In this document: positions 22,792 through 42,392 of the stretch, piece by piece | How the letters are laid out: each line of letters begins with the position of its first letter | How positions within the stretch are numbered: the first letter of the stretch is position 1 | Virus record (IMG/VR): IMGVR_UViG_3300025405_000011 | Span: 1 to 64,000 of that record | Direction: 5' to 3' (one strand) | DNA: 64,000 nucleotides | Source: a virus | The notes under the pieces: model-generated | What the model saw: the letters and a program-made list of their open reading frames with translations, nothing else | Database searches by the model: none | Told to the model about the DNA's origin: nothing | Translations under genes and position numbers: made by a program

Positions 22792-23324
22792 TACGACCAC
22801 TCCATTGGGGAACTAGTTCCTTGATAAAAACCATTATACATCTTTGAACTACTTGCATTGAAGAACAACATCTGGGCAATACTAGAACCTACTTCGATAT
22901 AGCTCTCGGCTTGTACTGAGACCATCATACCACATGCTCCTTGATACCCACTATCGAATAGACCATTTTCTCCACTACACCCACTCTTGGCCATGGTACT
23001 TCTAACCAGAGTAAGTCCACAAATATTACCGGGTAGGTCTAGCTTAGCACTAAACTCTATCTGGTATCTCTGTCCGGGTTCTAAACGGTACATGTCTACA
23101 CTATTTTTAAGCTCTACATCTACAGGGTAGCTAAAAGCTCTAAGAGGAGAGTATTCTGGCAGTTGCCTTTGATTTTCTTTATTGGCAAACAATACCAGGG
23201 GCCCATTGATAGTATAGACATTTTCTACTCTTAAGTCAATACTATTCGGTTGGATATCTTCTTCATCTACTCCGGTAATAAAACCAAAGTCTACGATATC
23301 CTTAGGGTTAACAATACCGTTCAT
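22791..23324 (-). CDS. dcd: dCTP deaminase / dUTPase-family enzyme
   Basis: A 177-residue trimeric-type enzyme of the dCTP deaminase family, which converts dCTP to dUTP (or directly to dUMP in bifunctional forms) for dTTP supply. Visible motifs: IQPNSIDLRV near the N-terminus, LTLVRSTMAKSG (catalytic arginine/serine region), GLFDSGYQG with the key residues after it, and SIAQMLFF. I chose the ATG at 23324, coupled to folE by TAATG and with AGGA upstream. Whether it is mono- or bifunctional cannot be read by eye. Confidence 0.8.
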   Translation of the reverse strand: MNGIVNPKDIVDFGFITGVDEEDIQPNSIDLRVENVYTINGPLVLFANKENQRQLPEYSPLRAFSYPVDVELKNSVDMYRLEPGQRYQIEFSAKLDLPGNICGLTLVRSTMAKSGCSGENGLFDSGYQGACGMMVSVQAESYIEVGSSIAQMLFFNASSSKMYNGFYQGTSSPMEWS

Positions 23325-23887
23325 TATCGTCCTGATACTGCCCTTAGCCACTCGTCCTTAACAGAAGGTTCTACGAAGTTACCACGAAGTGTACTGGTCA
23401 CTGTACTAGTTCCCGGCTTCTGTACTCCTCGCATGGCCATACAAAGATGCTCGGCCGAAATATAGACTCCTACACCTTGAGGTTGTAGTCCACAATCGTA
23501 GAGAGTGTCAGCAATCTGACTTCCTAGTCTCTCTTGTACTTGGAGTCTTTTGCTATAAGCATCAAGTACCCGAGCCAATTTACTGAGCCCAACAACACGA
23601 CCGCCCTTAGGGATATACCCAATAGTAGCAGTACCAAAGAAAGGAGCAAGGTGGTGCTCACAAAGGCTATAGAACGGGATGTCACGGACGATAACCATTT
23701 CATTTGAACCTTCTTTAAAGATAGCTTTTTCTACAAGAGCTTGAGGGTCAATATTATAACCAGCAGTCAACTCTTGATACATTTCTGATACTCTACGAGG
23801 AGTGTCCAATAGACCTTCACGCTCTGTATCTTCTCCCATTGAGGCCAGGAGTGCCTTTACTGCTACTTTACCTTCATCTAGGTACAT
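23324..23887 (-). CDS. folE: GTP cyclohydrolase I
   Basis: A 187-residue enzyme converting GTP to dihydroneopterin triphosphate, the first step of 7-deazaguanine synthesis. All family hallmarks are present: zinc ligands C76, H79 and C149 (SLCEHHLAPF and EHLCMAMRG), VVGLSKLAR at 98-106, and QVQERL near 117-122. Found with QueE and QueD in the same operon, it most likely feeds DNA base modification rather than folate synthesis. Confidence 0.92.
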   Translation of the reverse strand: MYLDEGKVAVKALLASMGEDTEREGLLDTPRRVSEMYQELTAGYNIDPQALVEKAIFKEGSNEMVIVRDIPFYSLCEHHLAPFFGTATIGYIPKGGRVVGLSKLARVLDAYSKRLQVQERLGSQIADTLYDCGLQPQGVGVYISAEHLCMAMRGVQKPGTSTVTSTLRGNFVEPSVKDEWLRAVSGR

Positions 23888-23892
23888 AATAC

Positions 23893-24021
23893 TTACTCTT
23901 CTTTCTTTTCTTTTTTAGATATATAAAATTCTGCATTACAAAAATCACAAGTGATTAGTTCTTTGGGTTCTACTGCCCTAGAGGCTTTACTAAAGTCTCC
24001 GGTACACTCACTACACCTCAC
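23893..24021 (-). CDS. Zinc-ribbon microprotein
   Basis: A 42-residue frame starting at GTG inside a TAGTG overlap with queE. It holds CSEC at residues 3-6 and CDFC at 25-28, the two knuckles of a zinc ribbon, then a lysine/glutamate-rich tail. It fills the gap between queE and folE. Function unknown. Confidence 0.6.
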   Translation of the reverse strand: MRCSECTGDFSKASRAVEPKELITCDFCNAEFYISKKEKKEE

Positions 24022-24731
24022 TAGCGTGCACGTTCATTAGCAGGCCAGATATAGTTGTGTACTTGTACATTTAGACTCCAAGGGAGCTTGTTCTCTAGAA
24101 TTAGTTCTACTAGTTCACTAGTAGGAAACACATCCCAAGCACTACCAGCCCAGAATCGAACTCCCGGCTTGACTTCATCCTTGAGACTATTCCATACTTC
24201 AATGGCTAGTTCAAAGTCGTGTCTGTCTTTACAGACAAACTTAATACCACTACCACTACGAAGATTGAGAGCATTAGTTCTACGATTTTCTAGTTTAGTG
24301 TCCCCTTCACCAGAACCCAATAGTTTCCAGTCCATCATAAAGTTAACAGTTCTAAGAACATTCTCACTATAGATAAAACTACCATTAGAAAAACTCTCTA
24401 CTTCAAATCCTTCACTGACCAATAGCACAATGAGTTCTTCCATTTTACTATTGGGCTGTAGAAAGGGTTCTCCTCCAGTTAAACAGATATTATTGGCTCC
24501 AGTTTCTTCTCTCTTGTCTTTGCAGTCTTTGAGAAGTTCTTCTGGAGTACGCTTGTAACTACCACCTTCTGCTCCCCAGATCTTAGGATCTACAGCAAAA
24601 GGAGTATCACAAGGCCAGCCAGCACAAGTCATATTACAACCGGCAAATCTTACAAAGTGTGTAGGAATTCCGGTTCTAGGACCTTCACCCTGGGTACTAA
24701 CATAATGTTCTACTAATCTTAGATCAGCCAT
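24021..24731 (-). CDS. queE: 7-carboxy-7-deazaguanine synthase (QueE)
   Basis: A 236-residue radical SAM enzyme that contracts 6-carboxytetrahydropterin to 7-carboxy-7-deazaguanine (CDG). The cluster-binding cysteines are C32, C36 and C41 in GCNMTCAGWPCDT, preceded by the TQGEGPRTG substrate loop and followed by LTGGEPFLQ. The cysteine spacing is CX3CX4C, two residues longer at the end than the more usual CX3CX2C. It is in one operon with queD and folE. No QueC follows it, which is the key oddity of this pathway. Confidence 0.88.
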   Translation of the reverse strand: MADLRLVEHYVSTQGEGPRTGIPTHFVRFAGCNMTCAGWPCDTPFAVDPKIWGAEGGSYKRTPEELLKDCKDKREETGANNICLTGGEPFLQPNSKMEELIVLLVSEGFEVESFSNGSFIYSENVLRTVNFMMDWKLLGSGEGDTKLENRRTNALNLRSGSGIKFVCKDRHDFELAIEVWNSLKDEVKPGVRFWAGSAWDVFPTSELVELILENKLPWSLNVQVHNYIWPANERAR

Positions 24732-24831
24732 TTTCTTCTTCCTCTTCTACTTTCTCAGTAGTTGGTAGGTCATCTGCCATCTTTAACTTATCGTTAAACC
24801 AGCCAGTATCTTCGTTACCGATTCGTTCCAT
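24724..24831 (-). CDS. Acidic microprotein
   Basis: A 35-residue frame (MERIGNEDTGWFNDK ... EEEEENG) that ends in an overlap with the queE start and begins three bases after the preceding stop. Support is from spacing only; it may merely be a spacer. Confidence 0.4.
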   Translation of the reverse strand: MERIGNEDTGWFNDKLKMADDLPTTEKVEEEEENG

Positions 24832-24833
24832 AG

Positions 24834-25025
24834 TTACTTCTTTTTACCACAGGTGCATTCACCACAACCACAAGCCTGTTGCTTTTTAGAGATTCTCTTG
24901 ACCTGCTCTGGAGCCACTGTCTTCTGGTAGATACCATTCTTTACACCTTGGCTAAACATATGAATAAAAGCTCCAACACCCATAAAGAATAGTGCTGGTA
25001 GAATTAGTACTAATACTATATGCAT
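24834..25025 (-). CDS. Small membrane protein with C-terminal Cys cluster
   Basis: A 63-residue protein with one clear membrane helix (residues 2-23) and a cytoplasmic-looking basic tail ending in CGCGECTCGKKK, a four-cysteine cluster that could bind metal. Coupled by TAATG to the upstream gene. Function unknown. Confidence 0.55.
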   Translation of the reverse strand: MHIVLVLILPALFFMGVGAFIHMFSQGVKNGIYQKTVAPEQVKRISKKQQACGCGECTCGKKK

Positions 25026-25237
25026 TATTGTTCCTCTTTCTTAGGAGCAGCCTTCTTCTTAGGTGCTGCTTTCTTTGCTACTGACTTTTTAGTAGTATGA
25101 CTAACTTTAGCTGGTTTATTGTCTAGAGTCTTTGGTGCCTCATCTCCCATTGGAAGTGGAAGGTCTGGAATACCAGGCCCATTATTACCACCAAAAGTTC
25201 CTTGTAACCAATTTAAAAAATTCTTTCCTGCACCCAT
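25025..25237 (-). CDS. Small protein with Lys/Ala-rich tail
   Basis: A 70-residue protein; the first half is Gly/Pro/Leu-rich and the last 25 residues are lysine, alanine and proline repeats (KKAAPKKKAAPKK), like the tails of actinobacterial nucleoid proteins. It could bind DNA or be surface-exposed and disordered. No family. Confidence 0.5.
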   Translation of the reverse strand: MGAGKNFLNWLQGTFGGNNGPGIPDLPLPMGDEAPKTLDNKPAKVSHTTKKSVAKKAAPKKKAAPKKEEQ

Positions 25238-25239
25238 TA

Positions 25240-25695
25240 CTATACTCCTCTACAATAGGCCACCGATGTAGGCGTCTCCCACACGGCTACTTCATACAAC
25301 TTAAGATCGTTACCAAATTCTACCTCAATGTCGTTCTCAATCTGCTCCCAACCCCAACGAGCAATATTTTCTGCTGTAGGGATGTAGGGAAATACAATAT
25401 AGTTCCAGTCTTGCTCTTGGGAGATAGTTTCCATCATACTACGAACTATATCGTCATTTTGCCAAACAGCAAACCCATGATCTAGGACATCATGAATTCT
25501 ATTGTTCATAATTGTCTTAAGATTACCAAAGTCAATAAGCATTCCATGATCAGGACGGCTAGGGTCATCAATTATATCTCCTTCACAGGTTACTCGAACT
25601 TTATAACGGTGACCGTGTGGGTTTCGACATTTACTACCATGAGTACTAACACGGTGTCCTAGATCAAATTCGATTTCTTTACTAATAAGATTCAT
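25240..25695 (-). CDS. queD: 6-carboxy-tetrahydropterin synthase (QueD)
   Basis: A 151-residue enzyme converting dihydroneopterin triphosphate to 6-carboxytetrahydropterin, the second step to CDG. Zinc-binding histidines H14, H27 and H29 and the catalytic C23 are in FDLGHRVSTH and SKCRNPHGH. Also seen are DHGMLIDF, a later DHG, PTAENIA and WETPTS, all typical. It is the first gene after the promoter at 25717-25745 and leads an operon through queE and folE. Confidence 0.92.
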   Translation of the reverse strand: MNLISKEIEFDLGHRVSTHGSKCRNPHGHRYKVRVTCEGDIIDDPSRPDHGMLIDFGNLKTIMNNRIHDVLDHGFAVWQNDDIVRSMMETISQEQDWNYIVFPYIPTAENIARWGWEQIENDIEVEFGNDLKLYEVAVWETPTSVAYCRGV

Positions 25696-25716
25696 TCTTA
25701 CTCCTAACTAATATTA

Positions 25717-25745
25717 ATTATAGTGCTTTTATTCTTCGGGAACAA
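25717..25745 (-). promoter_or_regulatory. Promoter, TTGTTC-N17-TATAAT (queD operon)
   Basis: -35 TTGTTC at 25740-25745 and -10 TATAAT at 25717-25722 on the minus strand, 17 bases apart. The leader of about 16 bases carries AGGAG before the queD ATG. The -35 box lies within the end of the upstream gene. Confidence 0.7.
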
Positions 25746-25929
25746 CTGTTTTAAGTTTTTCTTCCCATTGCCATTGCTCAATCCAACTCTCAACAATTCC
25801 ATAGGCATGATACCGTCCTAGTTCATAGTTTAAGGGTGCATCTGAGTCATCTACATGTGGAGCAAATGCTCGTATATTATTCTTGGCTCCTGTTAATCGA
25901 AAGATCAACATCTCTACTAGATCCTGCAC
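25729..25929 (-). CDS. Hypothetical protein
   Basis: About 66 residues, helical, with a aromatic WIEQWQWEEK segment. I prefer GTG at 25929, one base after the upstream stop and behind AAAGGA; a TTG at 25944 is the longer option. Last gene of the large modification operon. Function unknown. Confidence 0.5.
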   Translation of the reverse strand: MQDLVEMLIFRLTGAKNNIRAFAPHVDDSDAPLNYELGRYHAYGIVESWIEQWQWEEKLKTVVPEE

Positions 25930-25930
25930 A

Positions 25931-26677
25931 CTAGTCCTTTCCAAATCCCTTAAAAATCTTTTTAGTTCTAAACCCAGTTTGATATAGTCTTAGAGTTTTA
26001 GGCTTTTCTGGTTTACCCTTATACTTCCACTCAAAACGATGAAATTTACGAGCACCGATAACTCCTTCACGAAGTCCCCAGCGATGTCTTTTAAACGGGA
26101 TGGCTTGTATAATTGGAGTACCTTTGGGTATAGTGCCTGTCCAACCTTTCTTTAAGACAAATGGGAAATTGACACTCATGGCATTAAAACGATCAGTGTC
26201 CACTATTCCTGGAAGGCAGTAGAAGGGTAGTTCATGTCTATGTAGAGGGTTAACCCATAGAATACTATAACCACGAGGAGCTGCTAATATATAGTCACAG
26301 TTCCATTTATGGATGGCTTCATCATAACCCTCTGGAATGGGGTAGTCAGGAATCTGCATTAAATCATGTCCACTAACTAGACTAGGAGTACAGGTAAAGC
26401 TAGTGTTATCCTCAGTTCGAGTAACAACAACATCTTCAGCAAGTGTTATAACATAGCCTACTGTTAGTGTATCCAATACCGGCATACAGAACTTTACAGT
26501 AGGTATAGACTTTCCATCATCATAGGTACCTACTGTACCATCTCCACCCCATAGTGGCATATCCCGCATCCATTTGGGCATTACTCTTAGAACAGGTTTT
26601 ACGTTCTCGATGTTGGGCTGTATACCTGGAGTCTGTCTCTTAAAGTTATGACTCATACTTACACGTATATGTTTCAT
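25931..26677 (-). CDS. Conserved protein, paralog of 41094-41828
   Basis: A 248-residue protein clearly related to the product of 41094-41828: both share a CMP-x-LD pattern (KFCMPVLDTL versus KHCMPFLDAL), a central LAEDV strand, the NPLHRHELPF / HPLNRWDLPF segment, and a G-T-I-P-K-G-T / G-K-I-P-A-G-T turn followed by QAIPFKR / QLIPFRR. The strand-rich layout suggests a beta-sandwich or cupin-like fold. One copy lies next to the aminotransferase, the other among oxygenases and a sulfotransferase, so a role in the same modification chemistry is possible. Confidence 0.7.
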   Translation of the reverse strand: MKHIRVSMSHNFKRQTPGIQPNIENVKPVLRVMPKWMRDMPLWGGDGTVGTYDDGKSIPTVKFCMPVLDTLTVGYVITLAEDVVVTRTEDNTSFTCTPSLVSGHDLMQIPDYPIPEGYDEAIHKWNCDYILAAPRGYSILWVNPLHRHELPFYCLPGIVDTDRFNAMSVNFPFVLKKGWTGTIPKGTPIIQAIPFKRHRWGLREGVIGARKFHRFEWKYKGKPEKPKTLRLYQTGFRTKKIFKGFGKD

Positions 26678-26678
26678 A

Positions 26679-27872
26679 CTAGTTTTCCTCTACTGCTGCT
26701 CTTACACGCAAGAAAGCTGCAACTAGATCTCCACTCGGAGAGTTTAGAGCAGCATATAGTCTTACAACATTGGCTCCGTATAGTACACGTCCGGTAAATA
26801 CTTTATTGTTCCAAATTCTCTGTACTAGTCCATCAATCTCTACATCAGTATCGGTATTGATCTTCATACCGAGCATAAGTCCCAATCCATGTAGACTAGC
26901 TTCAGTGCAGCCTTGAAAAGCATGTCGTGCCTGTTCACCACGAGACCTTACCTGAGCCAAAAACACTGGGTCACTAGTGGCTCGAAACATAGCATACCCA
27001 GCGGCAACACTAACAGGATTTCCTCCAAAGGTGCTCAAGTGAGTAAAGGGATTGTCTACGCTCATAGAGTTCCATCGTTCACCACTAGACAAAACTGCTC
27101 CTAGAGGATATCCACCACCAAGAGCCTTACCTAGTGTAACTATATCTGGGTGTACATCTTGATACTGATCTAGTACAAACTGAGTACCAGTTCTACCAAA
27201 ACCCGTCTGTACTTCATCAATTACCAATAGTACTCCGTGGCTCTTACACCAGTCACTAACATACTTGGCCCATTCAGGGTCAATGGGTACTACCCCAGCT
27301 TCCCCCTGTACGAGTTCCATAAAGAAAGCAGCTCGGTTTCCATATTCCTCTGGGATTTCTTCTCCCTGCTGGACCCACCGAGTAAGCTCCGGACTAACCA
27401 TATGAGCGAAAGGCTCACGATAAGTTGGCTTATAAGTGAGACTAAGACTACCGAGACTACGACCATGGAATCCATCCTTTAGTGCTATAAAACCCTGTCT
27501 CCCAGTTGAGAGAGTGGCTAACTTCATTGCTAGTTCATTTGCTTCGGTACCACTAGTACAGAACCAAGTTCTACACTCTTCGGCAATACCATTACTCATA
27601 GTTAGAGTAGAAAACCTTTCGGCAAGAGCTTCAGCATATTTCAATTGCTCTTTAATATTAAACTCACCGTAGACATTAATATGAGCATACTTCTCTACTG
27701 TCCTCTTGACTGCTTTTTGAATAGGTCCATAGTTATGACCCATATTATTAACAGCAATACCACAAGCCATATCAAACATATCACCATACTCTTTGGTATG
27801 TAGGTAGCTACCTTGTGCACCTCTAATAGTAATATCATAGGGCCAAGGATTAGTTCTCGCTAGAAAGTCCAT
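26679..27872 (-). CDS. Class III PLP-dependent aminotransferase
   Basis: A 397-residue fold-type I enzyme of the class III (omega-amino acid / acetylornithine) group, which moves amino groups between omega-amino donors and aldehydes. Motifs: TSGTEANELA at 106-115 (phosphate binding), FHGRSLGSL, ELVQGEAG, D219-E-V-Q-T-G-F-G-R, and the PLP lysine K249 in TLGKALGGG. Start chosen at MDFLART (27872); a longer ATG at 27893 overlaps more. It is the fourth gene after dpdA, directly downstream of LuxC- and LuxE-like genes, so its acceptor may be the aldehyde they produce; beta-alanine from the phage PanD is a candidate donor. Confidence 0.9.
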   Translation of the reverse strand: MDFLARTNPWPYDITIRGAQGSYLHTKEYGDMFDMACGIAVNNMGHNYGPIQKAVKRTVEKYAHINVYGEFNIKEQLKYAEALAERFSTLTMSNGIAEECRTWFCTSGTEANELAMKLATLSTGRQGFIALKDGFHGRSLGSLSLTYKPTYREPFAHMVSPELTRWVQQGEEIPEEYGNRAAFFMELVQGEAGVVPIDPEWAKYVSDWCKSHGVLLVIDEVQTGFGRTGTQFVLDQYQDVHPDIVTLGKALGGGYPLGAVLSSGERWNSMSVDNPFTHLSTFGGNPVSVAAGYAMFRATSDPVFLAQVRSRGEQARHAFQGCTEASLHGLGLMLGMKINTDTDVEIDGLVQRIWNNKVFTGRVLYGANVVRLYAALNSPSGDLVAAFLRVRAAVEEN

Positions 27873-28050
27873 CTTCTTCTTTCTTTTGTTCAATTAAAAA
27901 TAGATCTTCTGCACTATAGGGATCAATCTCGTCATAGACCCACTCTACAATAACTCTACCATCGATGGCTTTACCGACCACTTGGCCTAGACTAGTCTTA
28001 ACTGTAACTATATCCCCAACTTGAAACTGATATTCTTCATCCACTGGCAT
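27850..28050 (-). CDS. Small SH3/KOW-like protein
   Basis: A 66-residue protein with FQVGDIVTVKTSLGQ, a valine-rich strand and VEWVYDE, resembling a small SH3-like or KOW-type barrel, then an acidic tail. It overlaps both the LuxC-like gene and the aminotransferase gene. It could be a scaffold or accessory subunit of the enzymes around it. Confidence 0.55.
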   Translation of the reverse strand: MPVDEEYQFQVGDIVTVKTSLGQVVGKAIDGRVIVEWVYDEIDPYSAEDLFLIEQKKEEDGLSSEN

Positions 28051-29077
28051 CTCCTACATATATATCAAAATCATCAACAGTATCAAACTGTTCAAAGAAT
28101 TGTGGAAACTGCATATAACCGAGGTCACAAATTCTAGTAACCATAAGGTCTTCTAGTATATCATTTATTCCGTCATCTTCTCGAAGACAGGCTACTGTAC
28201 TAATACTACTATGCCACTTCTCGATAAATTCTTCTACTTCATCAAGGTAGTCTACTACACAAAATCTAGCATCTCCATATAGTGTAGTAAAAATCTCAGG
28301 ACTTATCAACTCTTCTCTGCGAATATACTTTTGTACATAATTAGCAGAGATAAATTGCTGTACTAATTCACTCTTACGAGTTAGTGGCAGTTTACCTCTA
28401 AACTGATCGACCATTTCTCCATACATAACAGTCATAATGTCACTAATTTCTTTCCATTGCTTTTCACTAACACGTCCTATAATTATATAGAACTTGGGAC
28501 TTAGGCAACCTTCTCCATAGAAAGAAAAGAAATCAAAACAAATTTCATTAATGGTAACTGGAGTAAGATCCTCAGCACGAATTATCCCAAAACTAAACTT
28601 GGGTCCATGGACGTGTACTGTTCTATGTTCACTCTCTAGACCAATAAAGGCGTCTACTGTATCTTGTCCTCCAAAGACCACTACATCAGTGGCTTCTTCT
28701 AGAGCAGTTCTCCACTCCTCAGAAAGTTTTAATTCATCACTAGCAGTATTAAAGACTTTAGTTTGAACATCTTTACCGTGATGTTCTATCACATTCTCAA
28801 TTAAGAAATATTCATCTAGAGTGGGTGCTTTAATAGTTACACTCTCGGGGCCAGCAAGCTTAAGGCATAAGAAGACACTTTTAGCAGTAGCACCAGGCAC
28901 ACTCTTGGCACCAATAATAACAAACTTTCTACCACTCTTTTCAGTATACTCTTCAAACTCCCTGGGGACCTCCATGGCCTCTATGGCCATACGATAGTCA
29001 GTCTCTAGAAATCGTCCATACTGAGAAAGTACACCAACCATATCTACTTCTGGATTAATTATCCATTGCTTGGGCAT
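28037..29077 (-). CDS. LuxC-like acyl/carboxylate reductase
   Basis: A 346-residue member of the LuxC branch of the aldehyde dehydrogenase fold, which reduces an enzyme-bound acyl group to an aldehyde with NADPH. The nucleophilic cysteine is C191 in YGEGCLSPK. Other family marks: early IIGAKSVPGATA nucleotide-binding turn (54-65), VVVFGGQDTVDAF (132-144), HGPKFSFG, and a late ICDLGYMQFP. It is shorter than LuxC of luminous bacteria (about 480), mostly at the N-terminus. There are no luciferase genes; it is interlocked with the LuxE-like gene by a 23-base overlap. Confidence 0.8.
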   Translation of the reverse strand: MPKQWIINPEVDMVGVLSQYGRFLETDYRMAIEAMEVPREFEEYTEKSGRKFVIIGAKSVPGATAKSVFLCLKLAGPESVTIKAPTLDEYFLIENVIEHHGKDVQTKVFNTASDELKLSEEWRTALEEATDVVVFGGQDTVDAFIGLESEHRTVHVHGPKFSFGIIRAEDLTPVTINEICFDFFSFYGEGCLSPKFYIIIGRVSEKQWKEISDIMTVMYGEMVDQFRGKLPLTRKSELVQQFISANYVQKYIRREELISPEIFTTLYGDARFCVVDYLDEVEEFIEKWHSSISTVACLREDDGINDILEDLMVTRICDLGYMQFPQFFEQFDTVDDFDIYVGDASG

Positions 29078-30128
29078 AAGTTAAGCTACATCCTTTCTCA
29101 GGAGCATTGGTTGCCCTTCCTTCCAATACTAGTGTTGGAGGCCCATCTGAACTATACTTAAAGTGACCCACATCTTCAGTTAATATAAAAGGACAACTCC
29201 AGATATTGGCTAGATCTACAAAGGCAATAATTCCACTTTCCCCATCTTTAACTTCAGTCTGAGTAAGTGGGTCTACTAAACGAACATTTAACCAGTTAGG
29301 CCATTCGTATTCTACTTCTTGAGAGTTACCGGTAGCATAAAGTTGGCTACTAATTTCACTCATACTATATTCTCGAATACTATCTTGAGGACTAATCCCA
29401 AAAAAGTCAGATACTCTAGCAGTTAGTTGACTAGCAGTAAGTTTAATATCTCTGCCCTTCCAACCACCAGTTTCAATAAATATAGAACCTTCTGGAAGTT
29501 TTATGGGCATTAGAGAAGAATTATTAATTGTAGTCATTAGGTCATAGAAAGCTAAACTAGTACCAAATAACAATACTGGTTCTTCCTCTTTTGCTAGATC
29601 TAATTCAATAAAACTTCTGACTCTCTGGGGGTCAGTCATTCCTTCAAAACGTTCAGTAATTCCTCTACGATCATGCTGAGCTGAGATATGTACCATCATA
29701 TAGTAGAGACTACTATTACCTAATACTGGAGTTAACAATATCACTCGATACTTGGGGAATGGAGAACCATCTACAAATGCTCTAAACCCTTCTGCAATAC
29801 TAATTCTATAGGCTTCAGTATCATACATACGATGCATACTCTTATCACCTTGAGTAGTACCACTAGAGTGAAATTCTATTCCGGGAAAGGGCATACGGTC
29901 ACTAAGTACAATACCTACATCATGTCTTTTAAACTCACTAATAGGCATAAGTGGAATTTCTCTCCAGTCAGAGAGTTCTCCAATACTATAACGCTCGTAT
30001 ACTGGATTTAATTCTCGATGTAGATCATAGAGTCCGAGTGCAATCTCACCAAACTTCTCTTGGTGTAACGGATTCCTAACAAACTCAGTAGCATTCTTTA
30101 TAGCTCTATCAATCTCGTTCTTATTCAT
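29055..30128 (-). CDS. LuxE-like acyl-protein synthetase (carboxylate activation)
   Basis: A 357-residue ANL-type adenylating enzyme of the LuxE family: it activates a carboxylic acid with ATP and passes the acyl group via a cysteine thioester to a LuxC-type reductase. Motifs: phosphate loop SSGTTQGDKS at 88-97, ETGGWKG at 219-225, YSMSEISSQLY at 254-264, TEDVG at 317-321, and the C-terminal KGCSL (C347), matching the acylated cysteine of LuxE. I chose the start at 30128, which overlaps the exonuclease stop; longer frames start deep inside that gene. In luminous bacteria the acid is myristate; here CDG is the proposed substrate by context. Confidence 0.82.
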   Translation of the reverse strand: MNKNEIDRAIKNATEFVRNPLHQEKFGEIALGLYDLHRELNPVYERYSIGELSDWREIPLMPISEFKRHDVGIVLSDRMPFPGIEFHSSGTTQGDKSMHRMYDTEAYRISIAEGFRAFVDGSPFPKYRVILLTPVLGNSSLYYMMVHISAQHDRRGITERFEGMTDPQRVRSFIELDLAKEEEPVLLFGTSLAFYDLMTTINNSSLMPIKLPEGSIFIETGGWKGRDIKLTASQLTARVSDFFGISPQDSIREYSMSEISSQLYATGNSQEVEYEWPNWLNVRLVDPLTQTEVKDGESGIIAFVDLANIWSCPFILTEDVGHFKYSSDGPPTLVLEGRATNAPEKGCSLTYAQAMDN

Positions 30129-31071
30129 TGAATAATTTCCTTCCAAATGTAGATTCGGTCCATAGTGTGCCTTTAAGCCATCTATCCTTAATACTATTAA
30201 GTTCAAAGTAATCAAACAACTTTAATAGGTGTTCTCCATGATGTGGAGTATCTGGTCCTACAGGTTTAAACTGTAAATTACCTAGAGGTGGAAATGGAAT
30301 ATCATCTAGTCCCTTTAGCTCAATTAGACTAAATGCTCTACGTACCACTTCTTCATGAGGGGAGATCTTATCATTACCTTCATTAAAGATATTGTCTAGA
30401 GAGCCATAATCTTGTATTAGTTTGGTTGCCTTTTTGGGACCAATGCCGGGGACTCCAGGGATATTGTCTCCTTTATCTCCCATAAGAGCCCAAATCTCTG
30501 GTAGTCTCCAGGGGTCTATTCCCCACTCATCTACAACTGACTCTACATCAAAGATCTCTTCTTTAGTATCTTTGCTCTGCCCTAAACTGGGCTTTACTAC
30601 AATAACGTTTTTACGAATTAATTGACGTATATCGTGATCGGCACTAACAATTACTACTTTATCAAATACTGGGCCAAAAGCAGTTGCTGCCTTGGCTATA
30701 ATATCATCTGCTTCTACATCTTGTAAGCGTAAGTAGGGTATACCCATACTCTTTACAATTTCAAAGACTAGTTCTAGTTGAGGTCTAAACTCATCAACTA
30801 CTGGTTCTTCATTTTCTTCTTTCTTACGATTACGGTTGGCCTTATACTGTGGGTCGATAGCCAATCGTTTACTACTTCTACCTTGATCAAAAGCAATAAG
30901 AACATGAGAAGGTTCGAATCTACGAATCATACTAGAAATAGTATTAATTGTACCGTAGACTCCCCAAGTACCAACTCCATCACTATTTCTTAGTTCTTGT
31001 TTCATTAATCCACTATAGCCACGAATAAAGATATTGTGTCCATCAAAGATTAGGAGTGTACTTTTATCCAT
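30121..31071 (-). CDS. 5'-3' exonuclease (FEN/T5 exonuclease family)
   Basis: A 316-residue structure-specific nuclease for removing RNA primers and flaps. Metal-binding acids are in LIFDGHN (D), AFDQGRSSKR, VEADDIIA (E, D, D), SADHDIRQL and MGDKGDNIPG, followed by the helix-hairpin-helix VPGIGPKKA. It starts inside the dpdA stop region (TATGGATAA). Its location between dpdA and luxE-like shows that replication and modification genes share one transcript. Confidence 0.9.
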   Translation of the reverse strand: MDKSTLLIFDGHNIFIRGYSGLMKQELRNSDGVGTWGVYGTINTISSMIRRFEPSHVLIAFDQGRSSKRLAIDPQYKANRNRKKEENEEPVVDEFRPQLELVFEIVKSMGIPYLRLQDVEADDIIAKAATAFGPVFDKVVIVSADHDIRQLIRKNVIVVKPSLGQSKDTKEEIFDVESVVDEWGIDPWRLPEIWALMGDKGDNIPGVPGIGPKKATKLIQDYGSLDNIFNEGNDKISPHEEVVRRAFSLIELKGLDDIPFPPLGNLQFKPVGPDTPHHGEHLLKLFDYFELNSIKDRWLKGTLWTESTFGRKLFNE

Positions 31072-31927
31072 AATACTTTTCAAACTCTCCCCACAGAAGA
31101 TTAATATCAGTAAAGCCTAGATATTGTTCCCACTGTTCTTTGGGGATCTTACAGGCAGCTAGATAGCAAGCAACATTCCAAGCAATCACTTCTTGTTCTT
31201 CTCGAGTATAAGTTCTACTAAAGTCTAATGGAGTCCAGTCTTTGTCTCTACCAAAAGAAATATTTCTAAGAGCCTTAAACTTAGTAGGGCAGGCATAGGG
31301 TGCAGTAGTATCATGACTATGCACTAGTCCTAGTTCCAGTATCTTTTTAAACATAGGATGTCTAAATAGAGTAAATAGTTCACGAACTTCTAGAGTGCCG
31401 AGCATATGAATGCCTGTACCATTACCCTTAGTAAATTCTTGACTAGTGGTCAAGTGCTCTAGAAAGCCCAATCTTTTAGCCCAGAAAGGTAACCCTTCAC
31501 TAGTTTCAGTCTTAATCTTAGTATCATAAGTGACCCCAATACGATCTACAATACCACTCTGATCCCAGAATCTATAGCTCTCTAGCCCACTTTGGAGATC
31601 TTTAGCTTGTATAACTGCCATATATTTACCATGGTAGTCAGTATCTTTCATACTCTCATAAAACTCTATACTACGCTTACGAGTTTTCTTGTCCTTATGT
31701 AGAACATCCGGAAGGATAATCCAGTTGGGCTGTAAACGTCCAGCCAAGTAGGCCAAACGAGCCCCACCTTGACCTTCTCCTAGTTCATCTGCACCATTAT
31801 CTAGAACAAGTTTGTTCATAGTCTTATAGGATTCAATAACTGTAGAATCTTTCATCTCATGAGATAAAGCATACCCTAGAGATCTTGGGTGAGATAACTT
31901 ATGGGGTTTGCCCAGATATAAATCCAT
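31064..31927 (-). CDS. dpdA: DpdA-like DNA 7-deazaguanine transglycosylase
   Basis: A 287-residue TIM-barrel protein related to tRNA-guanine transglycosylase; phage DpdA swaps guanine for a 7-deazaguanine base in DNA. Supporting features: LVLDNGADELG at 40-50 and ILPDVLHKD at 71-79 (both with the aspartates expected at the base-binding and catalytic sites), HMLGTLE at 174-180, and LVHSHDTTAP at 201-210. The four-cysteine/histidine zinc site of bacterial Tgt is not evident. Presence of FolE, QueD and QueE in the same window strengthens the call. It is the enzyme that would commit the phage-made base to DNA. Confidence 0.78.
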   Translation of the reverse strand: MDLYLGKPHKLSHPRSLGYALSHEMKDSTVIESYKTMNKLVLDNGADELGEGQGGARLAYLAGRLQPNWIILPDVLHKDKKTRKRSIEFYESMKDTDYHGKYMAVIQAKDLQSGLESYRFWDQSGIVDRIGVTYDTKIKTETSEGLPFWAKRLGFLEHLTTSQEFTKGNGTGIHMLGTLEVRELFTLFRHPMFKKILELGLVHSHDTTAPYACPTKFKALRNISFGRDKDWTPLDFSRTYTREEQEVIAWNVACYLAACKIPKEQWEQYLGFTDINLLWGEFEKYYG

Positions 31928-31928
31928 A

Positions 31929-32579
31929 TTATTTCCTTACTAGGGTAGCAGCAAAGTTCGAATACTTTTCTCGAACATCTAATTCACAATTATAGCCATT
32001 CTTTTCAGCTAGTTCAACTATTTCTTGGGGGTCATGACTATTAAAGTTACGACTCCAATCCCAGTTAGGGTCATTTAGACTTCGATTAAATTCATGTCTT
32101 TGAGAGATAAATAGAACAGCTTTATTGCTCATAGCCATAACCTTTTCTAGTAATTCTAGGGAATAGTCATGAGGCAAAGAGTCCATCATGCACAATACTA
32201 GAGTTATATCTGCTCGTATTCCTTTATCATAAGCACTCTCTATACTTTCTACTTCGAAAGAAGCATTGGGTAAGTCAGCATAAATCTCTCGAGAACCATA
32301 GATCATATTTTCAGCTAGATCAGTCCCTAGGTATTTAATATCTGGGTTAATACTTCTTAGAGTCATAGCATAAGCACAACCCACTTCATGTACCGTAACA
32401 TTAGGGTCTAGTGCATAAAAATAATCTGTAATCTCTTTGGCTTTTTCTCGAACAAAATTAACAGTCCTCTTACGGTAGAGTCCCAATACTTTCTTTTCTG
32501 TAAAATTATTCCAATACTCTTTACGTTGCTCGTCTGACAGTGTATTGATGTCAAACTTACCCAATCCTTTTTTAACCAT
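31929..32579 (-). CDS. Class I SAM-dependent methyltransferase
   Basis: A 216-residue Rossmann methyltransferase: motif I VHEVGCAYAM near residue 66 (a variant glycine loop), motif II acidic residue in YLGTDLAENM, and ITLVLCMMDSLPH as motif IV. No DPPY-type motif, so it is not a standard DNA adenine or N4-cytosine methylase; small-molecule or modified-base methylation is more likely. It sits between dpdA and the amidoligases with overlapping ends, so it may methylate the deazaguanine side chain. Confidence 0.7.
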   Translation of the reverse strand: MVKKGLGKFDINTLSDEQRKEYWNNFTEKKVLGLYRKRTVNFVREKAKEITDYFYALDPNVTVHEVGCAYAMTLRSINPDIKYLGTDLAENMIYGSREIYADLPNASFEVESIESAYDKGIRADITLVLCMMDSLPHDYSLELLEKVMAMSNKAVLFISQRHEFNRSLNDPNWDWSRNFNSHDPQEIVELAEKNGYNCELDVREKYSNFAATLVRK

Positions 32580-33438
32580 TTTTAATCATTTCTATAGTTT
32601 CTTGTGACCAGTCTCTTACATATTCTAGAGTTGGTAGTTTTTCAGTGCTTTTAATACTAAATTCTGCAATCCTTTGAATTAACTTAGGGTCTCTAGTACC
32701 CGGCCACACTCTCCATTCGAGAGTATTATAGTTCTTAGTGGGGTCCATAACAGCACCAGGGCAGATTAGTCTACGGTATTGATATAGTTCAAAACTTTGT
32801 CTAGAACCATCCGGTAGTTTATGATGCCTACGGTATTCGTAACTATATTCTTCATAGTCCTTGGTCTTCAATAGATCATTTATAAAGTCATCACTATAGC
32901 GGTAGGTCTTGGGAGAATGTTGAGAAGTTGCTGCTTCATGTACGGCTATTAATAGATACTGTGCTTCTCTTACCCACTCAGTAAATTCTAGTAATCTTTT
33001 CCAGTTTGTTTCACTCTGGGCTCCAAAGTCCACGTGAACATGTAGGTCATGAAATAGATCTGGGTCAATTTCAGCTCCATATAGATCTAGATTTAATAGC
33101 ATTTTATTAAGAGTATAAAAGTCTTCTTCCATATTTTCAGGTCTTAGTATCGGAGAGATTAGTTCTGCACCCTGCCAATATTGTCTATTGCTTTCTTTGC
33201 CTCCAACAATACTACCGTCAGGCAACATTACTAGTCTTCTACACCTAGTGCCATTATGATTGCTAATAGTTTTATCACTAGAAATATTCCAACGATCATA
33301 CCTACGAACTTTTTCACTGAGTGATACTCCTCTATCTCGCCATTCCTCAAAGGAAATCTCTTGTAATTTAAAAACTACTTGAGCAGCCTTAAGGAGATTA
33401 ATATCCCCCATCTCTATTTCTAGCCCATAAGTAGTCAT
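32572..33438 (-). CDS. Amidoligase-family protein, single domain
   Basis: A 288-residue protein of the glutamine-synthetase-fold COOH-NH2 ligase (amidoligase) group, which couples a carboxylate and an amine using ATP. Signature elements: opening YGLEIEMGD, the central LHVHVDFG, and the closing NTLEWRVWPGTRDPK with its glutamate and arginine. It is coupled to the tandem amidoligase gene upstream by TAATG. In this operon it could attach an amino acid or amine to the modified base. Confidence 0.7.
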   Translation of the reverse strand: MTTYGLEIEMGDINLLKAAQVVFKLQEISFEEWRDRGVSLSEKVRRYDRWNISSDKTISNHNGTRCRRLVMLPDGSIVGGKESNRQYWQGAELISPILRPENMEEDFYTLNKMLLNLDLYGAEIDPDLFHDLHVHVDFGAQSETNWKRLLEFTEWVREAQYLLIAVHEAATSQHSPKTYRYSDDFINDLLKTKDYEEYSYEYRRHHKLPDGSRQSFELYQYRRLICPGAVMDPTKNYNTLEWRVWPGTRDPKLIQRIAEFSIKSTEKLPTLEYVRDWSQETIEMIKNG

Positions 33439-35183
33439 TAGATATTAGGCCTTTGAGCAGTTGCTATAAAACCCTTCTCCAATTCTACATCAAAGGGAGC
33501 CCAAGTAGGAAAGTTCCATTCTCTACTCTCATAGATTCTTTTGGCTGGTCTATCTGGGTTATAGAGACCGGCTTCTACAAACTGTCTAGCAAACTCAAAA
33601 CAGTCACGAATTTGTTCTGGATCAGTAGTATTGGGGAAACATCTAAACTCTACAGTACCATGAGCAAATACACTACGAACATTAATACCTGCACGGTGTA
33701 CCCCAATATGATACTGTCTCTTACCAAGTCGTTCATTAAAGTGAAAGTGACCATCATAAAACTCTTGAGGAGTAGTAGCATCTAGAATAGCTTGCCAACG
33801 AGTGGGAGGAACTCCTTGCTTGGTCCAAAGATTTTTTTGTCTATTGAACTTCATAGCCAATGCATAATCTTGCTTGTTAGGATATTCTCCTTCTCTAGGA
33901 CGTTCACGAGGCAGCATATCAGTGAATACAAAATCTTGGTTTTTAATTGTATAGTCAAATAGACTCTTGAGTGCTTCGACATCATCTACTAGTCCTGGAA
34001 CTCCAATGTGTAGTTGTAAACTACCACGGTATAGTGCTTTGGGGTCTAGTAGGTCTCTTAGAGTAGAGGCAATCTCTACTTGTCTCTCGATAGAATCTGT
34101 TGGTAGAGTATTGATCTCTCCTCCATAAAAGTTTCTCTGGAGAGTGGGATCATTGGCTCTACCATCTGAGTTAACAATGGTCCATTCCTTGGGACTCCAT
34201 CGTCCACAGTCCTCTGGCAGTTTAATTCGAGCGTCACAGTCACTCCACTCTAGTTCAGCACCATAAGTAAAAGTTCCCAAACGCTTTTTCCTTTTCTCTA
34301 TAATCTTTTTTCTTGCTGCTGCAGCATTAGGGTCTGGGTACTCCATATACTTATGCTTGGTCGCTAGAAATCCCTTTTCTAGTTCCGGAAGGAACTCTTG
34401 CCATTGAGGGAAGTTCCAAGTTTTACTCTCATAAATTTCTCTAGCAGTTCTACTAGGATTATACAGAGCAGCTTCCATATATTGCTTGGCAAACTCTAGT
34501 GCATCTCTTACTTGCTCAGGATCTGTTGTTCCGGCAAAGACACGAAATTCTGTAGTCCCGTGCTTAAAGATTGCTCTAATGTTAATTCCAGCTCGAACAA
34601 TTCCGATGTGATAGAGTCTACGTCCGAGCTTTTCATTATACTGGAAGTGGTAATCATAAAATTCTTTACAGGTTGTTGAATTGAGAATATCTTGTGCACG
34701 ATTTAATGGTACTCCTTGTTTGGCCCAATAGTTTTGTTGACGATAGAAGTTTTTTGCTAGTTTAAGATCTCCCTTGTCTGGAAACTTTTCTTCCGTAGGC
34801 TCAGTGTAAGGAAGCATATCAAAGTATACAAAGTTTTGATTGTCTTGAGTATATTGGAACAGTTGCTTTAGTGCATCTAGGTCCTCTTTTAGACCTTCTA
34901 CTCCTACATGTACGTGTAGATTAGCCCGGTAAAAGGATAGAGGACTTAAAAGATCTCTGAGTTCAGTTACGATGGCAACTTGTTCTTCTATAGAGTCAGT
35001 TGGTTTAGTATTAATCTCTCCACCAAGATGAGTCTTTTTCATAGTGGGGTCATTGGCTTGACCATCACTGTTAACTAGAGTGGCATCATCTTTGTTCCAA
35101 GTGGCAGTAGGGGGTAGTTCTATTCTACGGTCTACATCACTCCATTCGAGCTCTAACCCATAAGTAAACTTACCCAATGTCAT
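33438..35183 (-). CDS. Tandem-duplicated amidoligase
   Basis: About 581 residues made of two amidoligase domains (roughly 1-285 and 300-581) that share a near-repeated order of motifs: FTYGLELEWSD / FTYGAELEWSD, NSDGQANDPT / NSDGRANDPT, GGEIN-x-x-PTDSIE, LHVHVGV / LQLHIGV, GINIRAIFKHGTTEFR / GINVRSVFAHGTVEFR and DPEQVRD / DPEQIRD. Catalytic-type residues look intact in both halves. Start chosen at MTLGKF (35183), 14 bases into the panD end. Together with the next gene the phage makes three such domains. Confidence 0.75.
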   Translation of the reverse strand: MTLGKFTYGLELEWSDVDRRIELPPTATWNKDDATLVNSDGQANDPTMKKTHLGGEINTKPTDSIEEQVAIVTELRDLLSPLSFYRANLHVHVGVEGLKEDLDALKQLFQYTQDNQNFVYFDMLPYTEPTEEKFPDKGDLKLAKNFYRQQNYWAKQGVPLNRAQDILNSTTCKEFYDYHFQYNEKLGRRLYHIGIVRAGINIRAIFKHGTTEFRVFAGTTDPEQVRDALEFAKQYMEAALYNPSRTAREIYESKTWNFPQWQEFLPELEKGFLATKHKYMEYPDPNAAAARKKIIEKRKKRLGTFTYGAELEWSDCDARIKLPEDCGRWSPKEWTIVNSDGRANDPTLQRNFYGGEINTLPTDSIERQVEIASTLRDLLDPKALYRGSLQLHIGVPGLVDDVEALKSLFDYTIKNQDFVFTDMLPRERPREGEYPNKQDYALAMKFNRQKNLWTKQGVPPTRWQAILDATTPQEFYDGHFHFNERLGKRQYHIGVHRAGINVRSVFAHGTVEFRCFPNTTDPEQIRDCFEFARQFVEAGLYNPDRPAKRIYESREWNFPTWAPFDVELEKGFIATAQRPNI

Positions 35184-35520
35184 AAGTAAAGGCCTTAATC
35201 TTTTCATTGTTCTGATCTATTTCCATTACTTTGGCTGGTTCATACTCTGTACTAGTTTTACGAGTAAATAGAATACACTTGTCTCCAATTTCTCCTAAAC
35301 GAGCACCTCCACCGTTTAAGTGGAACTCTCTATCTGGACCATAGAGTACATAAGTTTCCCACCGAAGACCGTTGTTAGCATTTACACAATAGATCCACTC
35401 ATATTCTTCAATACCAAGTTCCAGGCAGTAGTTTTCTGGAATAGTAACAGAACCATGGTAGTCCAAACTCTTATGAGTTACTCTAATTCCATGTAGCTTG
35501 GCTCCTACATATTGTCTCAT
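35170..35520 (-). CDS. panD: Aspartate 1-decarboxylase (PanD)
   Basis: A 116-residue pyruvoyl-dependent enzyme converting L-aspartate to beta-alanine. It aligns in order with PanD: AKLHGIRVT (K8, H10), YHGSVTI with the self-cleavage pair G23-S24, NANNGLRWETYV (R53, Y57), and LNGGGARL replacing the usual LNGAAARL. Length matches bacterial PanD with a short C-terminal extension. It is the first gene after a strong promoter and leads the amidoligase-methyltransferase-dpdA-exonuclease-luxE-luxC-aminotransferase operon, which points to beta-alanine use in modification rather than in pantothenate synthesis. Confidence 0.85.
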   Translation of the reverse strand: MRQYVGAKLHGIRVTHKSLDYHGSVTIPENYCLELGIEEYEWIYCVNANNGLRWETYVLYGPDREFHLNGGGARLGEIGDKCILFTRKTSTEYEPAKVMEIDQNNEKIKAFTYDIG

Positions 35521-35573: not shown

Positions 35574-35602
35574 ATTATAAACCATTAATTATCAGGATAC
35601 AA
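35574..35602 (-). promoter_or_regulatory. Promoter, TTGTAT-N17-TATAAT (modification operon)
   Basis: -35 TTGTAT at 35597-35602 and -10 TATAAT at 35574-35579 on the minus strand, 17 bases apart, in the 71-base gap between uvsE and panD. The leader to the panD ATG is about 48 bases and ends with AGGAG. It would drive the operon from panD down to about 25729. Confidence 0.7.
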
Positions 35603-36614
35603 CTAAAAGTCTTTCTTTTACAAAACGCTCTTGAGAAAGATTCTTGGCCTTACTTTCAAGTTGGATATCAAAGTCATCATGGAAACGCCAAGCCCATTGA
35701 TTACTGGCTTGGTTCCAATAGTAGTCACTATGAGCTCTTAGCTTGGGTTTATTAAAACCTTGCTTGATTAGTTCTACAAAATCAGGAGCTACATAAGGGT
35801 CATGACCTATTAGTACATCTTCACGAGGAAGGCTATAGTGAATAACAGGACGCTTGCCTTTCCAAGAGTCTACAATTCTCAATACTCTAGAGTCATCAGG
35901 CTCAATATACTCACCAGTCTTGACCCAGTGGTGATGGATATCTAGTACTAGGGGGACATGGTGCTCTAGCTTAAGACTCTCTTCAATACCCCAGTTCATT
36001 TCACTATTCTCAATAGTTATATTTTCACGAGCAGTTCTAGAAAGATAAGGTAGTGCCTCTATAATACCTCGAGCACCCATCTGACCGGCAATATGTACAT
36101 TAATCTTGACATCTAGAGGGTCAGTATAGCCCATCCAATAGACCATATCAGCATGGTATTCCATCTCGTCTATACTACGCTGAACTACATCAGGGCGGTG
36201 ACTAGCCAATACCGTAAACTCTCCAGGGTGAAAACTCAAACGTATATCATGCTCTCTAGCAAAGTCACCAATACGTCCAAAACCATCTTCAATCTTGGGA
36301 AGGATACCAGGTCTACGATATACTTCTCGCCAATAAGGTAGACTATACAGAGGCAATAGATCACTACCCAGACGAACCATATGATAGATATCGTCACGAG
36401 CAGCAACACGCTCTAGTAAAAGCTCTACACTACGAAGGTTATGCTCTAGGACCTCAATCAATTTCATATCGGCAGTATGGCCCAGATTATTATTCATCCA
36501 GGTCAAAGTAAGACTTCTAGTGCTTAATGCCCTAGCATCATCTTTGGGGCCAATACCGTTAATCTGACCATCATGGTCAATCCACTTACAACAAAAACCT
36601 ACTCGTTTTTTCAC
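35592..36614 (-). CDS. uvsE: UV damage endonuclease (UvsE/UvdE)
   Basis: A 340-residue TIM-barrel endonuclease that nicks DNA 5' of UV photoproducts. Metal-ligand motifs: RLSFHPGEFTVLAS, VKINVHIAG, ITIENSEMNWG, LVLDIHHHW and HYSLPRED. The start is GTG, directly after the upstream stop. It is the last gene of the operon that begins at 38614. A phage-borne UvsE suits a host in sunlit water, or one whose repair is shut off during infection. Confidence 0.88.
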   Translation of the reverse strand: MKKRVGFCCKWIDHDGQINGIGPKDDARALSTRSLTLTWMNNNLGHTADMKLIEVLEHNLRSVELLLERVAARDDIYHMVRLGSDLLPLYSLPYWREVYRRPGILPKIEDGFGRIGDFAREHDIRLSFHPGEFTVLASHRPDVVQRSIDEMEYHADMVYWMGYTDPLDVKINVHIAGQMGARGIIEALPYLSRTARENITIENSEMNWGIEESLKLEHHVPLVLDIHHHWVKTGEYIEPDDSRVLRIVDSWKGKRPVIHYSLPREDVLIGHDPYVAPDFVELIKQGFNKPKLRAHSDYYWNQASNQWAWRFHDDFDIQLESKAKNLSQERFVKERLLVVS

Positions 36615-41097: not shown

Positions 41098-41828
41098 CGA
41101 TAGATTTTCTTTTTCCAATGATTCTTTCGATAATAACCGTCTTCAAGTTCTTCAAGTCCAACTGTATTCCAATGTGCAGTTTTATTGAGTTCTCCATCCA
41201 TACTCTCTTTGGCTATCCACTCTTCTCTACGAAAAGGGATTAGTTGTGCTACCATAGTCCCTGCAGGAATCTTTCCAGTAAAACCAATCTTTAGATGAAA
41301 GGCCATATTGGCACCCGGACAGTTATAGTCGTCTACAACTGCACTAGTACTGATAAATGGAAGATCCCAACGATTTAATGGGTGAGTAAAGAGACAACTA
41401 TATCCATCGGGTATTCTAATAGAAACTGGAAGAGACCAAATAAAGTGCTCTTCATGATAACCCGGTGGGTGTGGAGCAGGATCAGTTATTGCAGGTGGAC
41501 GATTAGATACAGGTCCTCTTTGTTGATTGTTATGACTTATAACTATTTTACCATCTACTTCTTGTACCCAGACATCTTCAGCCAAAAATACTCCATAGCC
41601 AGTGACTAATGCATCAAGAAAGGGCATGCAATGCTTAAGTCCTGGAAGTCTTGTTCCATCAAACTCGACCCAACGTTGAGTTTGTTTATACCAGTCAGGG
41701 GTATGTCTAGACATAGTCTGTACTAGTTCATCAAATTGTTGATTTGGATATCCACCTTCCCAGAGTAGAGTGACTGGTCCTGAACTAGAGTCAGTTAATA
41801 TTTTTTTATGTTTTTTTCTAGTGAACAT
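41094..41828 (-). CDS. Conserved protein, paralog of 25931-26677
   Basis: A 244-residue strand-rich protein with the same motif order as the 25931-26677 product (KHCMPFLD, FLAEDVWV, HPLNRWDLPF, AGTMVAQLIPFRRE). The N-terminus has a HTPDWYKQ segment matching PKWMRDMP in the paralog. It lies between sulfotransferase and two Fe(II) oxygenase genes. The function of the family is unknown to me. Confidence 0.7.
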   Translation of the reverse strand: MFTRKKHKKILTDSSSGPVTLLWEGGYPNQQFDELVQTMSRHTPDWYKQTQRWVEFDGTRLPGLKHCMPFLDALVTGYGVFLAEDVWVQEVDGKIVISHNNQQRGPVSNRPPAITDPAPHPPGYHEEHFIWSLPVSIRIPDGYSCLFTHPLNRWDLPFISTSAVVDDYNCPGANMAFHLKIGFTGKIPAGTMVAQLIPFRREEWIAKESMDGELNKTAHWNTVGLEELEDGYYRKNHWKKKIYR

Positions 41829-42390: not shown

Positions 42391-42392
42391 TA

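Follow-up and report, generated by a model that had tools for sequence, protein, structure and literature searches.

A LuxE-LuxC-aminotransferase trio that probably stands in for QueC and QueF in a phage 7-deazaguanine DNA-modification cluster

The gene cluster

The stretch of DNA analysed here, called the window, comprises bases 1-64000 of a virus record with a full length of 132,618 bases (IMGVR_UViG_3300025405_000011). It carries a run of genes for 7-deazaguanine modification of DNA, in which a LuxE-type ligase, a LuxC-type reductase and a class III aminotransferase (AT), referred to below as the trio, probably take the place of QueC and QueF in yielding 7-aminomethyl-7-deazaguanine (preQ1). 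As transcribed, the run begins with PanD, a tandem amidoligase, a single amidoligase, a methyltransferase-like protein, a DpdA-like protein, a 5'-3' exonuclease and the LuxE-like protein, continues with the LuxC-like protein, a 66-aa protein, AT, a phrog_7084 protein, a 71-aa protein and QueD, and ends with two small proteins, QueE, FolE and a dCTP deaminase. From PanD to the 71-aa gene, which follows the phrog_7084 gene, the genes overlap or abut (-44 to +1 nt); a spacer of 33 nt follows the 71-aa gene, and QueE is flanked by spacers of 102 and 133 nt. The gene positions and identities in an earlier note on this DNA were confirmed, with all genes on the minus strand, and its placing of LuxE, LuxC and AT in one operon with dpdA agrees with this near-gapless run. 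The cluster order recurs in five further lineages, so the arrangement is not due to chance. The terminase of the phage is nearest (44-46%) to those of large-genome actinobacteriophages, namely Rhodococcus phages E3 and Finch and Gordonia phage Stormageddon, which suggests an actinobacterial host.

Genes for 7-carboxy-7-deazaguanine and the transglycosylase

FolE, GTP cyclohydrolase I for the first step to 7-deazaguanine (23324..23887), matches PF01227 (2.3e-69) and is over the cut-off of TIGR00063. QueD, 6-carboxytetrahydropterin synthase (25240..25695), matches PF01242 (2.5e-32) and phrog_2389 (5e-35), and scores 83.4 bits against TIGR03367, the cut-off of which is 89.25. QueE, the radical S-adenosylmethionine (SAM) 7-carboxy-7-deazaguanine (CDG) synthase (24021..24731), matches the QueE-like phrog_2076 (1.2e-30), and its match to TIGR04349 (1.3e-29) is under the equivalog cut-off. 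Profiles of Pfam, PHROG and NCBIfam thus recover the three enzymes that the earlier note had read from the window.

The fourth member of this group is an open reading frame (ORF) at 31064..31927, which had been called a DpdA-like transglycosylase. Pfam and NCBIfam profiles give no match to it. It is homologous to the annotated DpdA of the Flavobacterium immuto phage (tblastn, E 2e-6), and its structural model (pLDDT 85.5) has the predicted fold of tRNA-guanine transglycosylase (TGT), all 50 PDB matches listed being TGTs, with a best E of 6e-5. D43, D74, D206 and HxLG are invariant across the relatives aligned, the immuto phage included; the three aspartates, equated by motif without superposition, are presumably D102, D156 and D280 of TGT. 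Hundreds of viral relatives exist, most of them beside QueD, QueE, FolE or QueF. Homology to phage DpdA and the predicted fold are both in line with the earlier call, and the protein is taken as a DpdA-type DNA guanine transglycosylase, as a distant homologue of DpdA with a predicted TGT fold.

The trio

The LuxE-type protein (29055..30128) is an ANL acid:protein ligase with a C-terminal acyl-carrier cysteine, Cys347. It matches PF04443 (1.6e-11 for the longer ORF) with 44.2 bits over a cut-off of 24.9, and aligns to the LuxE of PDB entry 7xc6 (3e-10), the GCSL motif included. The SSGTT, YxMSE and TED motifs of the ATP site and KGCSL are invariant in six phage lineages, so that the C-terminal GCSL cysteine seen earlier is both present and, as Cys347, unchanged among the aligned phage relatives. 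Against the equivalog of fatty-acid LuxE, NF052244, the score is likewise 44.2 bits, whereas 550 are needed; identity with fatty-acid LuxE and LuxC was rejected on this score and on the gene context.

The LuxC-type protein (28037..29077) is a compact acyl-thioester reductase of the aldehyde dehydrogenase (ALDH) superfamily, which matches PF05893 (2.7e-6) with 27 bits over a cut-off of 21. Its model shows the ALDH-superfamily fold (PDB matches 3e-8, pLDDT 73). The protein has 346 residues as compared with about 480 in full-length LuxC, about 110 N-terminal residues fewer than bacterial LuxC. The catalytic Cys191 lies in the GCLSPK motif that the earlier note had pointed out, and it is invariant in the six lineages, being lost in a remnant described below (L034).

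AT (26679..27893) is an ArgD-like pyridoxal phosphate (PLP) enzyme of class III, as shown by PF00202 (1.6e-67) and the Schiff-base residue Lys256, which is invariant in the phage relatives aligned. This lysine is the K249 of the earlier note; the two numberings agree if translation begins at MDFLART. AT falls under the cut-off of every curated NCBIfam class III subfamily (ArgD, LysJ and others), the best being acetylornithine transaminase with 259 versus 457 bits.

Conservation among trio phages

Profiles of LuxE recovered further viral records, which after removal of near-copies represent six lineages (the window and L015; L016; L017-L018; L019-L022; L023; L024). A plain blast search of named phages with LuxE and LuxC gave no match, and a genome scan using the phage-type LuxC confirmed no relative. 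Across the lineages the identity to the window is 42-66% for LuxE, 43-72% for LuxC and 48-77% for AT. DpdA, exonuclease, LuxE, LuxC and AT occur in this fixed order in all loci of the six lineages, which answers the earlier call for a survey of co-occurrence with dpdA in other phages. QueD, QueE, FolE and dCTP deaminase follow downstream in all lineages except L016, whose DNA stops inside the AT gene. In contrast to this constant core, PanD, the amidoligases and the methyltransferase are complete in the window, L016 and L023; L017-L018 have one amidoligase without PanD, and in L019-L022 and L024 the trio is retained although PanD, amidoligase and methyltransferase are all missing. Since the accessory genes vary and the trio does not, the trio goes with QueD, QueE and DpdA, and the amidoligase module is dispensable to it. 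The idea that the trio is bound to PanD and the amidoligases was rejected, as the two modules separate among lineages.

Absence of QueC and QueF, and alternation with QueF

Profile searches of the whole 132.6-kb record for QueC (PF06508) and QueF (PF14489) gave no match for either, while control genomes matched. The same searches gave no match in ten IMG/VR relatives bearing the trio, again with matching controls. The lack of both genes, first noticed in the window, therefore extends to the entire record and to these relatives; presence of either gene elsewhere in the genome had been named in advance as a refutation of the route, and neither was found. This record (132,618 bases) and a relative, G008 (132,935), share one collinear layout in circularly permuted form, each covering the ends of the other. 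Both are thus essentially complete, and the absence of QueC and QueF is real for these two. The same PF14489 profile was over the cut-off in 34 of 50 whole records with relatives of this DpdA, and LuxE was found in none of the 50.

Viral relatives of the DpdA (23-33% identity), typically found beside QueD, QueE, FolE and QueF, fall into 60 clusters at 90% identity. QueF is present in 39 of these, the trio in 6 and both in none. Where at least 4 kb downstream is available (41 clusters), QueF occurs in 33, the trio in 6, both in none and neither in 2 (Fisher p=6e-6, relatedness of the phages being ignored, with no tree correction). As QueF makes preQ1, the prediction is that this family of DpdA works in a preQ1 system, where the trio would replace QueF plus QueC.

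A related phage with a 105-kb record, L034, keeps a LuxC that is 46% identical (L034:9998-11041), and QueD, DpdA and LuxE were not found in that record. Its LuxC has arginine in place of the catalytic cysteine (GHGRLAPK), and is probably a decayed or repurposed remnant. Loss of the catalytic residue once the 7-deazaguanine genes are gone fits the sequence of this protein.

Proposed route

QueC makes the nitrile preQ0 from CDG, and QueF makes preQ1, according to papers on phage 7-deazaguanine and the QueC family from 2019 to 2026 (PMC6884629, PMC13329287). In the phage, FolE, QueD and QueE would provide CDG. The LuxE-type ligase would then convert CDG with ATP to CDG-AMP and to a thioester on its C-terminal cysteine, and LuxC would take the acyl group onto its own cysteine and, with NAD(P)H as reductant, turn it into 7-formyl-7-deazaguanine. 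AT would finally convert this aldehyde with an amino donor to preQ1, so that preQ0 is bypassed entirely. The substrate at these steps might be the free base or a base already in DNA. In the window phage and some relatives, the amidoligases may in addition join PanD-derived beta-alanine to the new amine.

Each of these steps has a parallel. QueC itself activates CDG by adenylation using ATP. The logic of activation, reduction and transamination is that of ArgB/C/D and LysZ/Y/J. Amination of an aryl aldehyde is within the reach of class III aminotransferases, as with plant pAMT and vanillin.

What was observed in the sequences is the identities of the genes, their catalytic residues and order, the absence of QueC and QueF, and the alternation with QueF; the substrates, the product, the order of steps and the role of PanD and the amidoligases are those that we infer. 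The conversion of CDG through the 7-formyl compound to preQ1, as proposed in the earlier note, gains support in that the trio accompanies QueD, QueE and DpdA, is independent of other modules and is exclusive of QueC and QueF (six lineages versus 33 QueF clusters). For the fuller scheme, a nitrile-free preQ1 branch that replaces QueC plus QueF non-orthologously and is followed in some phages by beta-alanylation by tandem amidoligases, giving a DNA hypermodification not known before, the chances appear to be about even.

Several points weigh against replacement of QueC and QueF by the trio. Support for it comes from gene context, predicted structure and sequence. LuxC has diverged from its Pfam family (2.7e-6) and is about 110 residues short at the N terminus, and the confidence of its model is medium (pLDDT 73). 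The alternation with QueF probably reflects one or a few evolutionary switches, since the trio phages are related, and the DpdA sample was drawn by peptide patterns. The phage LuxE forms its own deep clade, so its substrate is not readable from homology. The host could provide preQ0 or preQ1. As for the accessory amidoligase step, it is weakened by about 70 amidoligase loci of viruses other than the trio phages, nearly all of which are without DpdA or Que genes nearby in the stretch examined.

Alternative explanations

The trio might serve a different carboxylate, such as a fatty acid, an amino acid or another base, while the host gives QueC and QueF and the phage FolE, QueD and QueE boost CDG. 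Bacterial LuxE-LuxC families do have other substrates. Among bacterial relatives of this LuxE, the better-scoring ones are mostly in cassettes of LuxE, LuxC and a short-chain dehydrogenase/reductase (SDR) with transport genes of the ABC/THI5 type or SLC23 (L011, L012, L013, L014, L036-L115). Cassettes of this thiamin type occur in Pantoea, Levilactobacillus, Azospirillum, Malikia and others, and among the loci scanned with Rfam, thiamin pyrophosphate (TPP) riboswitches precede L011, L012, L014, L039, L041, L061 and L078. Their substrate is probably a heteroaromatic acid from thiamin metabolism, the thiamin-pyrimidine carboxylate (HMP-carboxylate), which they would reduce, and hence LuxE and LuxC need not mean fatty acids. 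Action of LuxE on fatty acids, which the earlier note had set as a refutation, is less likely in view of these thiamin-linked relatives and of the low score (44 versus 550 bits). Strong support separates the deep clade of the phage LuxE from the LuxE of thiamin cassettes, which therefore give an analogy and not a substrate assignment. Descent of the phage LuxE and LuxC from thiamin cassettes is likewise unsupported, given the separate clade.

Trios of LuxE, LuxC and class III aminotransferase also exist in bacteria, in single metagenome-assembled genomes of Methylomirabilota, Armatimonadota and Nitrospirota (L040:4657-8432; L044:5947-9552; L052:5950-10365), and the trio of L040 adjoins a QueG gene. 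Such bacterial trios would favour a different carboxylate. On the other hand, the phage trio is constantly alongside DpdA, QueD, QueE and FolE, QueF is in no trio phage, the trio LuxE is in 0 of 50 records with related DpdAs, and LuxC has decayed where the pathway was lost. A different carboxylate is accordingly unlikely.

PanD and the amidoligases supply the only serious alternative substrate for the trio. LuxE, LuxC and AT might act on beta-alanine, either free or joined to CDG by an amidoligase, to give a 3-aminopropyl amide of CDG. PanD and the amidoligases are part of one gene run with the trio, in which they come directly upstream, and amide ligation at the carboxylate of a DNA base is known for CmoY (PMC12783734). 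The main argument to the contrary is that the trio occurs without PanD or amidoligase in L019-L022 and L024, and an amidoligase without PanD in L017 and L018; the alternation with QueF would also be left unexplained. Use of beta-alanine by the trio is thus quite unlikely.

It is very unlikely that the trio ends at, or branches from, 7-formyl-7-deazaguanine (to another amine or an imine-linked adduct) so that the final base is not preQ1-derived, because the class III aminotransferase is kept in all loci and related DpdAs are found with the preQ1-making QueF, although the substrate of AT is a predicted one and some phages have a methyltransferase and the 66-aa protein along with the cluster.

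Relation to known systems

If replacement of QueC and QueF by the trio is right, this is a phage 7-deazaguanine modification cluster with a new biosynthetic route. The earlier note knew of no described pathway of this kind, and our search of the literature for LuxE or LuxC with 7-deazaguanine, or for enzymatic 7-formyl-7-deazaguanine, likewise found nothing relevant. The canonical system for preQ1 and dPreQ1 (FolE-QueD-QueE-QueC-QueF with DpdA; PMC6884629) shares FolE, QueD, QueE, a DpdA-type transglycosylase and the predicted preQ1 in DNA with the phage cluster, which instead of QueC and QueF has LuxE, LuxC and AT, and would proceed through an aldehyde, not a nitrile. The LuxC-LuxE fatty acid reductase of bioluminescence (PDB 7xc6) is made of the same two families with the same C-terminal cysteine of LuxE and cysteine of LuxC, whereas the phage has a compact LuxC, AT and 7-deazaguanine genes as partners, and a proposed heteroaromatic substrate. 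The LuxE-LuxC pair of the thiamin cassettes is also predicted to reduce the carboxylate of a heteroaromatic ring; there the aldehyde would be taken to an alcohol by SDR, while the phage route would lead to an amine, and the LuxE clades are separate. In the CmoA-CmoX-CmoY phage system for 5-carboxymethylcytosine (PMC12783734), a DNA-base carboxylate similarly serves as a chemical handle, although on cytosine and by direct amide ligation to glycine without reduction or transamination.

A second route to preQ1 by carboxylate reduction and transamination would, if true, mean that a pathway of nucleobase biosynthesis has been replaced by a non-orthologous one. New DNA bases and new intermediates (7-formyl-7-deazaguanine) would be expected from it. 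It would also account for phages with FolE, QueD, QueE and DpdA yet without QueC and QueF and widen the scope of LuxE and LuxC from fatty acids to heteroaromatic acids. The trio would also be a defined enzyme set for an aminomethyl handle on DNA guanine. Phage 7-deazaguanines with substituted preQ1 amines have reportedly been described by Cui et al. in 2023, with formylation and methylation of dPreQ1 by DpdN and DpdM, and also DpdL. To our knowledge, the substituted-preQ1 systems depend on QueC and QueF for preQ1, and none uses LuxE or LuxC.

Accessory and neighbouring genes

The earlier note missed PanD and three Amidoligase_2 domains (32572-35207), directly upstream of DpdA. PanD, aspartate 1-decarboxylase for beta-alanine (35170..35520), matches PF02261 (1.3e-23); the tandem Amidoligase_2 protein (33438..35207) matches PF12224 in two stretches (5e-11), and the single-domain protein (32572..33438) matches it with 3.5e-10. 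The SAM methyltransferase-like protein (31929..32579) gives weak Methyltransf matches and one to phrog_3382 (9e-6), and is found elsewhere only in the PanD-bearing lineages L016 and L023. This accessory module, present in some lineages only, may acylate (beta-alanylate) the new amine; support for such a role of PanD and the amidoligases is moderate. In L023, an additional Amidoligase_2 lies between the methyltransferase and DpdA (L023:7311-8093).

Amine-modifying genes also occur in related contexts. Vibrio phage 2.275.O (L008) has an amidoligase beside QueF, and amidoligases are downstream of type-I QueF in L255:9240-12286, followed by QueE, and in L261:8931-10897; the latter two are candidate systems for acylation of preQ1. 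The immuto phage has a formyltransferase near DpdA. L024, the most divergent trio phage, has a GNAT acetyltransferase directly upstream of DpdA (L024:7415-8074), which could acylate the base amine. Among the roughly 70 amidoligase loci, QueF is alongside only in L008, L255 and L261. A viral pair of Amidoligase_2 and a low-molecular-weight-phosphatase-like gene is widespread (L204-L268, L007), mostly without Que genes nearby. Use of the amidoligase as a general marker of 7-deazaguanine is weakened, as most viral loci pair it with the phosphatase-like gene instead. The PanD neighbourhood of Gordonia phage Jace has no annotated 7-deazaguanine genes.

Within the run, the 5'-3' exonuclease (30121..31083; PF02739, 3.4e-38) is a replication gene with a conserved position. 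The 66-aa protein between LuxC and AT (27850..28050) is present in some relatives, with tblastn matches only in L016-L018 and in the near-identical L015. The phrog_7084 protein (25931..26677; 1e-36), to which no function is assigned, has no tblastn match in L016-L024 and is outside the conserved core. A UvdE-type UV endonuclease adjoins the cluster (35592-36614) and is present in some relatives. Farther along the window are two neighbouring 2-oxoglutarate-Fe(II) oxygenases (41818-42959) and an N4/N6 DNA methylase (44293-45057), which possibly represents a second DNA modification of the same phage.

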